A DNA stretch of 11,019 nucleotides from Fulvivirga aurantia. Lineage in GTDB: Bacteria > Bacteroidota > Bacteroidia > Cytophagales > Cyclobacteriaceae. Both the position numbers and the translations under genes were made by a program. The DNA is taken from contig NZ_SMMD01000847.1 in NCBI RefSeq assembly GCF_009711475.1, positions 1-11,019 of the forward strand, read 5' to 3'. Positions within the stretch are counted from its first letter, which is position 1, and every line of letters begins with the position of its first letter. Positions 90 to 8,355 of this stretch are shown piece by piece. The notes under the pieces were generated by a model that saw only the letters and a program-made list of their open reading frames with translations, had not been told where the DNA came from and ran no database searches.

Positions 90-1073
90 TTATGTGTGGC
101 GCAGGGCTATGGCTGTGAGTATATTCATGCTGTAAATAAAGGCCTGATAGGGGTTTTCATCTGTACCGTCTTTGAGGTTAAGCAGTTTCTCAGGTTGACA
201 TAAAAGCATAAGTATTTTCCATTCATCATCCGATAGCCTATCAGCATGAGCATCGATCAGCGACTTTATCTCCCTGATCAGGGCTTTTTGTAGCGGGCCG
301 GAAATGTAATAGGTGATGGGTAACACCCACTCCGGAGAACTCAGGGGCATACTCGCCAGGTATATGTCTTTTGATTGATGCGCAGAAAGCTTATTTCTCA
401 GCTCATAGATGCCTGCATGTTGAACTTCCTTTTGTTGATAAGAAGAGCCATAGCCATCGGCCAGGGATACATACTCGCTGTTATGCTGGTCACCGTTGGC
501 CAAAATAACCTGAAGTGGCTGCTCACCGGCAGACCAATGTACCTCACCCGGGGTTACCCCGGATAGGTGCCAGCTATTCGCAGGAGCGACAGTCGTTTTG
601 TATCCTATTTCATGAAGATAACTGCAGAGGTCGTTGTCATACAATCCTGCTGTATTGATAAAAAACTGTGCTTCCTGATCAAAGTGCTCTCGATAAGATT
701 GCTGATGAAGCTCAATCTCTTTGCGAAATAGCTGCTTGTGGCACAAATAGCTCAGCGAGTGATAAGCGCAGGATCCGATAAGCTCAACCTGACCAGCATC
801 CAGGTACTTCTTGATTTGGTTTATTGTAGCCACATTTTGCAATGCCAAATGACTCAGAAAAGGCGCGCTAAAATATACCAGCACCTGATTACCTTCTTTT
901 AGGTGATTGATCAGGTGAGAGAGCTTGTCTTTTATTTCTTTCTCAAAAGCCTCGGCAAATCGTTTTTCATCTATTTCTTCCTCAGATAAGTTGCCCGATT
1001 TTCCAACTTCCAGAAAAGAGAGGTTTTTAAAGCTCAACGTAAAATGATAATGTAATACCTGAAACTTATTCAT
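90..1073 (-). CDS. GH57-like (alpha-amylase-like) protein, catalytic residues apparently lost
   Basis: This 327-residue protein resembles family GH57 alpha-amylase-like proteins but is shorter than the 400 or more residues of typical active members. The GH57 scaffold is visible: a histidine-containing N-terminal strand (LHYHF, 7-11, in place of the usual HQP motif), VELIGSCAYHSL (96-107, resembling the family's E-L/I...YYHP motif), INTAGLYDND (139-148) and a C-terminal NPYQAFIYSMNIL (307-319) like the family's SPYDAFxNxMN ending. In active enzymes the third motif reads NTEL(I)Y, with Glu as nucleophile; here Ala142 occupies that place. The DxETxGE motif carrying the catalytic Asp is not recognisable between residues 185 and 225. 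It has no signal peptide, so it is presumably cytoplasmic. Its start overlaps the end of the GT4 gene by 8 bp (ATGAATAA), which suggests translational coupling. A binding or regulatory role on alpha-glucan is inference; an active enzyme with relocated residues is not excluded. Confidence 0.75.
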   Translation of the reverse strand: MNKFQVLHYHFTLSFKNLSFLEVGKSGNLSEEEIDEKRFAEAFEKEIKDKLSHLINHLKEGNQVLVYFSAPFLSHLALQNVATINQIKKYLDAGQVELIGSCAYHSLSYLCHKQLFRKEIELHQQSYREHFDQEAQFFINTAGLYDNDLCSYLHEIGYKTTVAPANSWHLSGVTPGEVHWSAGEQPLQVILANGDQHNSEYVSLADGYGSSYQQKEVQHAGIYELRNKLSAHQSKDIYLASMPLSSPEWVLPITYYISGPLQKALIREIKSLIDAHADRLSDDEWKILMLLCQPEKLLNLKDGTDENPYQAFIYSMNILTAIALRHT

Positions 1074-5002: not shown

Positions 5003-6826
5003 ATGGCAGAAAGCAATACACTAAATGCAGATGAGCACTTACTGGCCGAAATCGCCTGGGAGGTTTGTAATCAGGTAGGAGGTATTTACACTGTTATCAG
5101 GTCAAAAGTACCTACCATGGCCAGGCATTGGGGTGAAAATTATGTATTGCTTGGGCCGTATGCTAAAAAAGAAGCCAGCACCGACTTTGAAGAATGTGAG
5201 TTTGAGCATAAAATTCTGAAAGAGGCCATCGACAACTGTCGGGCCAAAGGTTTAGATATTAAAAGCGGGTTTTGGCTGGTTTCAGGTAGGCCAAAAACGA
5301 TTTTATTCAATCACTTCTCAGTTTACCATGAGCTGGGCACTATCAAATATTATTACTGGCAAAATCATAGGATAGATTTCAACCAACACAATCCGTTGAT
5401 GGATGAGGTGTTGGCGTTTGGGTACATGGTGCACCTTTTTCTTTCTGAGCTTACCCGTGTAGCATTGAAACATAAGGTGAAGCCACTGGCTCATTTTCAT
5501 GAATGGATGGCCGCTTCTGCCTTGCCAAATCTCAGGAGAGATCAGGTGCCATTACAAACCGTTTTTACTACTCATGCTACCTTGCTCGGGCGTTATTTGG
5601 CGATGAATGACCCTAAGTTTTACGATCATTTGCCATTTATGGACTGGCAGAGTGAGGCAAAAAATTTCAATATTGAAGCCAATGTAATGCTTGAAAGAGC
5701 CTGTGTGCATGGCGCTCATGTATTTACTACGGTAAGTGAGGTTACCGGTAAGGAGTGCTTGCACCTGCTGGGCCGGAGTCCTGATCTTATTTTGCCCAAT
5801 GGGCTTAATATCGAGCGTTTTTCTGTAGTGCATGAAGTGCAAAATCTACATCACAAATACAAAGATGTGCTTGAGCAGTTTGTGATGGGCCACTTTTTTC
5901 AGAGCTATTCTTTCGATCTTAATAAGACACTATACTTTTTTACGTCAGGGCGGTTTGAGTATTCCAATAAAGGTTATGACCTCACACTAGAGGCGCTGGC
6001 CAGGCTCAACCATCATCTTAAGCAAATGAATTCACCTCTAACAGTGGTGATGTTTTTTGTGACCAAACAACCGGTTCAATCCATCAACCCGGATGTGTTA
6101 AATGCACGAGCTATGCTCGATAAAATTCACACCAATAGTGATGCAATTGTAGAGCAGGTAAAGCAAAGGCTTATCCGTCAATCGGCCGCAAGCAAAGGCG
6201 ATTATAAATTACCTGACCTTAATGCATTGGTTGACGATTACTGGAAATTGCGCCACAGACGCACTATACAATCATGGAAAACTGACCAATTGCCGCCAGT
6301 AGTCACACATAATTTGGTAGATGATAACAATGATGAGATTCTGAATTTTTTGCGTTGCTCAAACCTTGTAAATAACAAAGAAGACAATGTGAAAATCGTT
6401 TATCATCCAGACTTCATTTCTTCTACCAATCCTTTGTTTGGTATGGAGTATGATGACTTCGTGAGGGCTTGCCATCTGGGTGTTTTCCCTAGTTACTATG
6501 AGCCTTGGGGTTACACACCACTTGAGTGCCTGGCACGTGGGGTGTCTGCTGTTACTTCAGATTTATCCGGTTTTGGAGATTATATGAAAAATGTGCCCAT
6601 TGGAGATGAACAACATGGTATTTTCATAGTTAAAAGAGCGAACAAGAGCTTTGATGAAGCTGCTGAAGACTTGTGTAGTACCATGTTGAAGTTTATACAA
6701 AACAGCAGCAGAGCTCGTGTAGATATGCGAAATAAATCAGAGGATTTATCAGAATGCTTTGATTGGAAAAATTTGTACAGGGCCTATGAGCAGAGTTACA
6801 TAAAAGCCGCATCTACACTTTTTTAA
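5003..6826 (+). CDS. GT3 family (eukaryotic-type) glycogen synthase
   Basis: This 607-residue protein is a family GT3 glycogen synthase, the type known from fungi and animals and from some Bacteroidota. It extends alpha-1,4-glucan chains, in characterised members from UDP-glucose. The N-terminal domain opens with AEIAWEVCNQVGGIYTVI (15-32), the GT3 signature with the donor-contacting GG. HFHEWMA (164-170) and TTHATLLGRY (189-198) are also family-typical. The donor domain has GRFEYSNKG (316-324, Arg317 and Lys323) and an E-x7-E at Glu500/Glu508 (EPWGYTPLE). It is shorter than the roughly 700-residue eukaryotic enzymes, lacking their phosphorylated terminal extensions. The C-terminal helix that carries the eukaryotic glucose-6-phosphate-sensing arginine cluster is recognisable (569-588), but only Arg570, Arg572 and Arg576 remain; later positions are Lys578 and Asp581. 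It is the first gene of the rightward operon, 23 bp before the DUF4301 gene. The family call is very firm. Confidence 0.95.
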   Translation: MAESNTLNADEHLLAEIAWEVCNQVGGIYTVIRSKVPTMARHWGENYVLLGPYAKKEASTDFEECEFEHKILKEAIDNCRAKGLDIKSGFWLVSGRPKTILFNHFSVYHELGTIKYYYWQNHRIDFNQHNPLMDEVLAFGYMVHLFLSELTRVALKHKVKPLAHFHEWMAASALPNLRRDQVPLQTVFTTHATLLGRYLAMNDPKFYDHLPFMDWQSEAKNFNIEANVMLERACVHGAHVFTTVSEVTGKECLHLLGRSPDLILPNGLNIERFSVVHEVQNLHHKYKDVLEQFVMGHFFQSYSFDLNKTLYFFTSGRFEYSNKGYDLTLEALARLNHHLKQMNSPLTVVMFFVTKQPVQSINPDVLNARAMLDKIHTNSDAIVEQVKQRLIRQSAASKGDYKLPDLNALVDDYWKLRHRRTIQSWKTDQLPPVVTHNLVDDNNDEILNFLRCSNLVNNKEDNVKIVYHPDFISSTNPLFGMEYDDFVRACHLGVFPSYYEPWGYTPLECLARGVSAVTSDLSGFGDYMKNVPIGDEQHGIFIVKRANKSFDEAAEDLCSTMLKFIQNSSRARVDMRNKSEDLSECFDWKNLYRAYEQSYIKAASTLF

Positions 6827-6849: not shown

Positions 6850-8355
6850 ATGGATCAAGTGCTAAAAGACGATATTAAAAAAATGGGAAAATCAATCGAC
6901 CGGGTAGAACAACAACTCGACCGATTTAAAAATGGATTCCCTTATCTCACCATCACTAAACCGGCTACTGTGGGTGATGGCATTATTAGGTTATCTGATG
7001 ATGATTTGGATCAAAATATATCTTCTTTTGAGCGGAATGCTGATCAATATCATATCACGAAGTTTGTGCCCGCAAGTGGTGCTGCGAGTAGGATGTTTAA
7101 GCGTTTATTTTCCTTTTTGGAAGAAGATGAGTCTGTAGTAGAAAATGACGAGTTTCTTACCCAATTTTTTGATGACTTGCAGCATTTCGCTTTTGCCAAA
7201 TCCCTCGATGAAGAAATGCAAAAGAATGGCCAAACGCTCGAGGAGGCCAGAAAAGATAAGAAATACCACGAGATTGTAAAGGCGCTGCTTTTACCGGAAG
7301 GACTAAATTATGGTCAGCTGCCAAAAGGACTTTTAGAGTTTCATAAATATGGCACTGATGCCAGAACAGCGACAGCCGAACATTTCGCAGAGGGAGAACG
7401 CTATGCCAAAGGCAAAAACGGAGAGGTGCACCTTCATTTTACGGTTTCTCCCGAGCATCAGGAAGCTTTTGATCAGCATGTAAAAGAACTAAAGCAGGGC
7501 TATGACAAGTTTACAATAGACTTCTCGCAACAAGACCCGAATACAGACACCATTGCTGTTACACCTGACAATGAACCGTTTCGTGAAGATGACGGAAGCA
7601 TTTTATTCAGACCCGCAGGGCATGGGGCGCTGATAGAAAACCTCAACAAGATAGATGCCGATATTGTGTTTGTGAAAAACATAGACAATGTAGTGCCTGA
7701 CCATCTCAAGGAGCCCACTGTAAAGTATAAAAAGGCGCTGGGAGGTTTATTGATCGATACACAACAAAAGCTATTTGCTTACGTGCGAGAATTGGAAAAT
7801 GAGGTGAATGAGAATCAACTGAAAGAGATCGAAGCTTTCGCTAAAGATAAGCTCATGCTTAGTTTTAAATCTGGGTATGATGCTATGTCGATTAATGAAA
7901 AAGCTACCTATTTAAAACAACAGCTAAACAGACCTTTGCGAGTTTGTGGTATGGTGCCCAACACCGGAGAGCCCGGAGGAGGCCCTTTTTGGATAGAAGA
8001 AAAAGACGGCTCCAATAGCCTGCAGATTGTAGAAACATCGCAGTTTAACCCAGATGACAAAGAAGCCCAGGGCGCATTACAATCGGCCACTCACTTCAAT
8101 CCTGTAGATCTCATTTGTGCGTTTAAAGATCATAATGGCAGTAAATTTGACCTTACTAAATATGTAGACCCGGACACAGGTTTTATCACAGAAAAGTCAA
8201 AGAGTGGCAAATCGCTCAAAGCCTTGGAGCTACCCGGCCTGTGGAACGGAGCCATGTCAGATTGGATCACCCTTTTTGTTGAAGTGCCAATAGAAACCTT
8301 CAACCCGGTGAAGACAGTCAATGATTTGCTCAGAGAGCAGCATCAGGGTGTTTGA
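6850..8355 (+). CDS. DUF4301 family protein, candidate sugar nucleotidyltransferase
   Basis: This 501-residue protein matches the DUF4301 family, which has no function that I know of. Key stretches are KFVPASGAASRMFK (71-84), LPKGLLEFHKY (157-167), FRPAGHGALIENL (253-265), VKNIDNVVPD (275-284), VCGMVPNTGEPGGGPFWI (365-382) and LQIVETSQFNP (391-401). Order and content resemble UDP-glucose/UDP-N-acetylglucosamine pyrophosphorylases: G-rich loop ending in R(M/L), PKG, a TSE-like segment (TVSPEHQ, 198-204), FxQ (FSQQ, 225-228), PxGHGD (here AGHGA), NIDN, then GG...L.E.AQ with a later FN...L. The main departure is an inserted helical segment of about 70 residues between the G-loop and PKG, which are close together in known enzymes. 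Context fits: it follows a UDP-glucose-dependent glycogen synthase in an apparent operon. I infer a GT-A-like nucleotidyltransferase fold; UDP-glucose formation is only a hypothesis. Its 3' end is 4 bp from the convergent SDR gene, with no terminator visible between. Confidence 0.85.
   Translation: MDQVLKDDIKKMGKSIDRVEQQLDRFKNGFPYLTITKPATVGDGIIRLSDDDLDQNISSFERNADQYHITKFVPASGAASRMFKRLFSFLEEDESVVENDEFLTQFFDDLQHFAFAKSLDEEMQKNGQTLEEARKDKKYHEIVKALLLPEGLNYGQLPKGLLEFHKYGTDARTATAEHFAEGERYAKGKNGEVHLHFTVSPEHQEAFDQHVKELKQGYDKFTIDFSQQDPNTDTIAVTPDNEPFREDDGSILFRPAGHGALIENLNKIDADIVFVKNIDNVVPDHLKEPTVKYKKALGGLLIDTQQKLFAYVRELENEVNENQLKEIEAFAKDKLMLSFKSGYDAMSINEKATYLKQQLNRPLRVCGMVPNTGEPGGGPFWIEEKDGSNSLQIVETSQFNPDDKEAQGALQSATHFNPVDLICAFKDHNGSKFDLTKYVDPDTGFITEKSKSGKSLKALELPGLWNGAMSDWITLFVEVPIETFNPVKTVNDLLREQHQGV

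Follow-up and report, generated by a model that had tools for sequence, protein, structure and literature searches.

The stretch of DNA analysed here, called the window below, comprises 11,019 nucleotides of a Fulvivirga aurantia contig (NZ_SMMD01000847.1), and its forward strand carries at positions 6850..8355 an open reading frame for a protein of 501 amino acids that we propose to be a divergent pyrophosphorylase of the UGP/UAP type. The protein matches the Pfam family PF14134 (DUF4301) over its full length with an E-value of 3.8e-222 and 739.1 bits against a cut-off of 27, and the genome search returned a single DUF4301 match in the window's genome. NCBIfam gave no match to it at E <= 1, and a single-sequence search of the PDB sequences gave unrelated weak matches only. 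On the same strand, and ending 23 bp upstream as the original prediction had noted, lies a gene for a GT3 glycogen synthase (5003..6826; PF05693, E 4.9e-197), and the two genes probably form one operon. The complementary strand between 90 and 4776 holds GH57, GT4 and GH31 genes that are divergent from GT3-DUF4301, and together with that pair they look like an alpha-glucan cluster.

Of 296 genomes sampled from the phylum, 51 contain DUF4301. In our literature search the family was named in a single paper, as a table row, and PF14134 nowhere, and the search found no account of a GT-A UDPGP protein in Bacteroidetes. The viral contigs searched contained no DUF4301; the phage records that do are three unannotated fragments of 4.6–7.5 kb from human faeces, and the plasmid records number four, all from Bacteroidales. 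At G289:C54:1491357-1492843 the match to the DUF4301 gene is split in two, and a stop was noted.

Conservation was assessed in two alignments, A1 with 128 DUF4301 sequences and A2 with 90 whose mutual identity lies below 66% and which are 30–62% identical to the window protein; the A2-invariant residues named here are a selection, and further ones exist. The original prediction had picked out nine motifs (RM, PKG, TVSPEHQ, FSQQ, GHG, NIDN, GGGPFW, LQIVETSQ and HFNPVDL), all of which were recovered at the residues where it had placed them. Eight of the nine contain A2-invariant residues, the exception being TVSPEHQ (198-204; 7441..7461), in which T198 is nearly invariant and for which there is no alignment support. 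Reading from the N-terminus, with all features on the forward strand, the candidate nucleotide-binding loop is PASGAASRM (74-82; 7069..7095), placed by order and by the invariance of P74, A75, S76, G77, R81 and M82; it ends in RM at 81-82 as predicted and, with one glycine, is not the G-rich loop that had been described. Spacing then points to a family-specific insertion of 75 residues (83-157; 7096..7320) between M82 and P158, where plant UGP has 4 (M94 to P99), in agreement with the roughly 70 residues foreseen. Behind it stands PKG (158-160; 7321..7329; P158 and K159 invariant), by order a candidate counterpart of the UGP GPK lysine.

The middle of the protein contains FSQQ (225-228; 7522..7533; S226 and Q228 invariant), whose Q228 is a candidate for the base-binding Gln of UGP: hhalign and the long-gap alignment described below both set it opposite the Gln in UGP TFNQ, with the F off by one place, and FSQQ lies outside the best local path of the per-segment alignment. 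PAGHG (255-259; 7612..7626) follows the invariant R254, is itself invariant at P255, G257, H258 and G259 and variable at A256, and by the alignment of region 205-290 appears to be the counterpart of UGP PPGHG. NIDN (277-280; 7678..7689; N277, D279 and N280 invariant) aligns with UGP NSDN and would contribute the putative metal-binding Asp. After a further invariant group, R361, P362 and R364, comes GGGPFW (376-381; 7975..7992; G376, G377 and P379 invariant), a candidate counterpart of UGP KGGTL by order only; in the long-gap path KGGTL was paired with ALGGLL at 296 and not with GGGPFW. QIVETSQ (392-398; 8023..8043; E395 and Q398 invariant) is matched to UGP QLLEIAQ by the alignment of region 360-430, and HFNPVDL (415-421; 8092..8112; F416 and P418 invariant, N417 nearly so) aligns with UGP FNTNNL.

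Beyond the invariant K449 and E460, the C-terminal part holds a signature specific to DUF4301, PGLWNGAMSDW (462-472; 8233..8265), in which P462, G463, L464, W465, N466, G467, M469 and W472 are invariant. It is followed by a PVK...DLL motif additional to the nine, VPIETFNPVKTVNDLL (479-494; 8284..8331; F484, P486, V487, K488, D492 and L493 invariant), which the alignment of region 455-501 pairs with the UGP segment VPRSRFLPVKATSDLL that contains an essential lysine. The protein stops 7 residues past DLL and, judged by its sequence, has no C-terminal beta-helix domain.

Kinship to the UGP/UAP superfamily was measured against the plant UGP profile, and evidence for it came from Pfam as well. In a Pfam scan of the A2 members at E <= 1, UDPGP (PF01704) was matched by 31 of 90, with a best E-value of 1.7e-4, and the next family besides DUF4301 and UDPGP by 3 of 90; the window protein gave no match to PF01704 in the scan. 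When ten members were scanned in detail, three matched PF01704 at 10.9–14.3 bits, against a cut-off of 22, over profile positions 238-343. A PF01704 search of 148 genomes found matches in 6, and in one of these (G009) the match, at E 5.5e-4 and under the cut-off, lies inside the DUF4301 gene; that gene is not among the three just mentioned. A side product of this work were four loci (L137-L140) with frames of 1113-1134 amino acids whose middle resembles UDPGP positions of about 159-295 (E 5e-6 to 1e-10) and which are not DUF4301.

Profile comparison with hhalign, using A2 or A1 against plant UGP, placed Q228, PxGHG and NIDN against the corresponding parts of UGP and aligned LQIVETSQ...FNPVDL...VPIETFNPVKTVNDLL with QLLEIAQ...FNTNNL...VPRSRFLPVKATSDLL. 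The two UGP segments had P-values of 0.013 and 0.017 and a probability of about 3%, as compared with controls of P 0.59 for GT3 and 0.37 for a TonB receptor. A rerun with fewer gap columns gave as its top match another short segment (44-65 on UGP 18-39) at the same P, a global run of DUF4301 against plant UGP returned nothing, and a PDB sequence search with profile A1 produced unrelated weak matches only, UGP being absent.

A profile alignment tolerant of long gaps, with gap settings chosen by us and one set used throughout (slightly lower extension in the per-segment run), joined the 90 DUF4301 sequences and 14 plant UGPs in a single colinear path of blocks with a score of 32.0, as against 13.1 +- 2.1 and a maximum of 23.9 in 60 column shuffles. 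Six single plant UGPs scored 30.2–33.3 against the DUF4301 profile, and 272 neighbour proteins (one for each cluster of mechanically called open reading frames of 350-700 amino acids around DUF4301 genes) had a mean of 13.1, a standard deviation of 1.9 and a maximum of 21.2, from which a p of about 1e-6 was fitted. Taken segment by segment, with 150 shuffles each, the scores were 20.6 for 205-290 and 21.4 for 455-501 (both reached by no shuffle), 11.9 for 360-430 (reached by 4), 6.4 for the loop segment 60-100 (reached by 15) and 7.3 for 60-215, which spans the loop and PKG (reached by 119; best local pairing PKGLLE/PKSVIE). The C-terminal half scores above its shuffles, so that its kinship to plant UGP can be regarded as well supported at the level of sequence; the loop alignment does not, and the loop is therefore placed by order and conservation and PKG, likewise, by order and invariance. 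The same profile gave background scores with E. coli GalU (13.8), GalF (12.6), GlgC (11.4), GlmU (15.7), RfbA (14.4), KdsB (12.7) and NadR (10.5), which argues for kinship to the UGP branch in particular.

We therefore put at about 0.72 the probability that DUF4301 belongs to the eukaryotic-type UGP/UAP pyrophosphorylases (UDPGP, GT-A) as a divergent branch and would carry out pyrophosphorylase chemistry. The relationship proposed in the original prediction is thus borne out by the C-terminal alignment, the Pfam UDPGP matches and the pattern of invariance, and not by the alignment of the loop and PKG, which does not rise above shuffles. We infer the GT-A fold, the N-terminal correspondences, the activity and the substrate pair. 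Under this reading the protein would make a nucleotide sugar from a nucleoside triphosphate and a sugar-1-phosphate, with release of pyrophosphate, and the family would acquire a testable function.

The residues expected to carry out such a reaction can be named from the Aspergillus enzyme. According to PMC10470519, Lys135, His228 and Lys403 of this UGP act on the phosphates and Asp258 on Mg2+; the uridine is contacted by Leu121, Gly123, Gly124, Gln198 and Gly227 and the glucose by Asn256, Asn329, Asn331 and Glu307. The same paper reports the equivalents of Lys135 and Lys403 to be essential in Leishmania and human UGP and Gly123 to be sterically limited to glycine (PMC10470519). DUF4301 keeps counterparts in K159 (by order only), H258, K488, D279, Q228, G257, G77, N277, N417 and E395. 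In our set of 135 DUF4301 loci, some of them duplicates, K159, H258, K488, D279, Q228, G257, N277 and E395 do not vary, and N417 is S in three. The conservation expected of Arg81, Lys159, His258 and Asp279 accordingly holds, R81 being invariant in A2 and the other three across the 135 loci. By its sequence the active site looks intact: the phosphates would be held by K159, H258 and K488 and Mg2+ by D279, with Q228 and G257 as presumed contacts of the base and N277, E395 and N417 of the sugar. Two positions depart from UGP. The position of Gly123 is S76 in 135 of 135 loci, with G77 kept, provided that the loop is placed rightly, and that of Asn331 is V419, itself T in eight loci; with these replacements the preference for base or sugar may differ, and S76 is the strongest hint in the sequence of a possible change in base or geometry.

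In the window, DUF4301 would most likely provide its upstream neighbour, the GT3 glycogen synthase, with UDP-glucose, and UTP plus glucose-1-phosphate is our tentative choice of substrate pair, held at somewhat less than even odds. Several observations make a supplier of this kind welcome. A passage in PMC4432691, which cites a paper of 1997, ties UDP-glucose pyrophosphorylase activity to glycogen in Prevotella bryantii, and GlgC is described as absent from Bacteroidetes in the relevant part of PMC10395257. The window's genome has no match to GalU at E <= 1e-30 and none to PF01704, although in the same search no control genome matched PF01704 either. Over the cut-off, GalU was found in 2 of 62 genomes with DUF4301 and 3 of 80 without it (7 of the 80 at E <= 1e-30). 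These observations fit DUF4301 as a UDP-glucose source, and do not single it out as the missing UGP, because GalU is equally rare where DUF4301 is lacking. DUF4301 may supply an activated sugar in bacteria without a recognised enzyme for it, and with P. bryantii reported to make glycogen via UDP-glucose, Bacteroidetes reported to lack GlgC and GalU rare in the genomes searched it is a candidate source of UDP-glucose.

How far the link to GT3 extends can be gauged from gene order and co-occurrence. GT3 lies directly upstream of DUF4301 in 7 of the 135 loci (the window, L002, L003 and L174-L177), and this adjacency needs two changes on a tree of 80 rows, so that either an old operon was lost once or the arrangement arose twice. 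Counted over the cut-off, 15 of 62 genomes with DUF4301 have GT3, as do 11 of 80 without it (p 0.13, uncorrected for kinship). Within the window's genus (g1) the figures are 9 of 9 with DUF4301 against 1 of 6 without (p 0.002, uncorrected for kinship), whereas among the remaining f1 genomes GT3 is rarer with DUF4301 (1 of 6) than without it (4 of 4; p 0.048, likewise uncorrected). The GT3-DUF4301 link is real for the clade of the window without being general; the partnership suggested in the original prediction has its support in the window's genus and is weak as a rule.

Another reading is a UGP-related nucleotidyltransferase of general glycan metabolism whose product is not UDP-glucose but a different nucleotide sugar, or whose base is a different one, a possibility that overlaps with the main reading at the level of the family and that we consider worth keeping in view, if doubtful. 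The replacements at S76 and V419 would suit it, as would the lack of GT3 in 47 of the 62 DUF4301-containing genomes and a few neighbours seen at one locus each, namely mannose-6-phosphate isomerase (L181), GlgX (L129) and a sugar-kinase-like gene (L050). It is countered by the retention of the UGP base residues and most sugar-contact residues, and by the neighbourhoods, in which no sugar-specific gene was found to be kept across groups in the 135 loci. The remaining neighbours are scattered, among them RelA/SpoT, directly upstream on the opposite strand in 22 loci, and a 5-oxoprolinase subunit in 5.

That DUF4301 has another fold and resembles UGP through convergence or chance seems unlikely to us: the weak hhalign results and the PDB profile search speak for it, but the colinear blocks, the shuffles, the background of neighbour proteins and the Pfam counts all speak against it.

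A different sort of evidence comes from family f7, where PnuC lies upstream of DUF4301 in 23 of 23 examined loci, with a NadR-type kinase between them in 21. Thirteen of these 21 loci (L158-L167 and L169-L171) have it fused to DUF4301, and it is a separate gene directly upstream of DUF4301, behind PnuC, in eight (L132, L145, L147, L150, L152 and L154-L156); at L133 and L168 PnuC directly precedes DUF4301. In the remaining three DUF4301-containing f7 genomes PnuC lies within about 600 bp, and G289 has PnuC and DUF4301 with no kinase between. Among representatives, PnuC passes its NCBIfam cut-off, the separate kinase matches the kinase half only of TIGR01526, and the fused protein consists of AAA_28 and DUF4301. 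On the tree the fusion requires three changes, L158 standing outside the main clade, so that either fusion happened twice or a single fusion was followed by splits. PnuC occurs in 38 of 50 genomes with DUF4301, a count made on DUF4301-containing genomes only, and in the window's genome a PnuC-kinase pair sits apart from DUF4301, on a separate contig (L193; G000:C216). Neither this association nor the C-terminal PVK...DLL motif and the missing beta-helix had figured in the original prediction. Nine loci (seven with PnuC and DUF4301, L194 and L201) contained no riboswitch, the RNAs found there being two tRNAs and one Flavo-1 RNA only.

It is tempting to read this arrangement as a nicotinamide riboside salvage pathway, in which PnuC imports the riboside, the NadR-type kinase phosphorylates it and DUF4301 adenylylates NMN to NAD, replacing the adenylyltransferase half of NadR; the gene order, the repeated changes in fusion state, the rarity of full-length NadR (3 of 62 DUF4301-containing genomes) and a like chemistry, with a phosphate attacking the alpha-phosphate of an NTP, are all in its favour. 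We nevertheless judge it very unlikely. Kinase-half matches occur in 45 of 80 genomes without DUF4301, of which 6 also have full-length NadR, and are absent from 16 of the 62 genomes with DUF4301 (14 outside the class and 2 in family f11); three f7 genomes (L200, L201 and L202) have consecutive genes for PnuC, the riboside kinase and ArfB and no DUF4301, and L133, L168 and G289 have no kinase in between. Moreover, the f7 loci differ at 85% consensus only at A114 and R495, neither of them an active-site position, so the f7 active site is unspecialised, and the similarity to E. coli NadR is at background. Complementarity of DUF4301 to a NadR half was considered and rejected, kinase-only matches being common in genomes that lack DUF4301. 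A variant, in which DUF4301 would be an NMN adenylyltransferase on a UGP-type scaffold unrelated to NadR and would complete, with PnuC and the riboside kinase to which it is often fused, a route from nicotinamide riboside to NAD, is a long shot. The simplest reading is that DUF4301 catalyses the same reaction in all its contexts, and the f7 kinase fusions offer a sharp and cheap way into the substrate question. The degenerate, non-catalytic sensor of a sugar nucleotide that the original prediction had also allowed for, to which divergence from characterised pyrophosphorylases and the lack of a known activity might point, is hardly credible, because no presumed catalytic position varies and all 135 loci keep the Lys, His, Lys and Asp, as a decaying active site would not.

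If DUF4301 is a UGP/UAP-type pyrophosphorylase, as we favour, it can be set beside several known systems. GalU, GlgC, GlmU and RfbA are bacterial enzymes with the expected GT-A pyrophosphorylase chemistry, but their scores against the DUF4301 profile (11.4–15.7) are those of the background. FKP is a bifunctional kinase-pyrophosphorylase in which a kinase is fused to a pyrophosphorylase-like domain, a layout that the f7 fusions resemble, except that their kinase is of the NadR ribosylnicotinamide type (AAA_28) and not a sugar kinase. The nucleotide loop of UAP/AGX1 has an Arg, as DUF4301 has in R81, and the UAPs in the PDB match plant UGP by sequence; the C-terminal PVK...DLL segment of DUF4301 is UGP-like and would set it apart from UAP/AGX1. 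The closest likeness is to UGPase-A (PF01704), with which DUF4301 shares colinear Gln, PxGHG, NxDN, ExxQ, FN and VPxxxFxPVKxxxDLL blocks and the conservation of the catalytic counterparts. It differs from UGPase-A in the 75-residue insertion before PKG, in the one-glycine loop PASGAASRM, in the PGLWNGAM signature, in having Val for a sugar-binding Asn and, if the loop is placed rightly, in having Ser for a strict Gly, such that the two uridine-flanking loop glycines are not both present (S76, G77); the left-handed C-terminal beta-helix of UGP is absent. Should the assignment prove true, the architecture of the UGP/UAP group would be widened to include proteins that lack the beta-helix domain and carry a new insertion.
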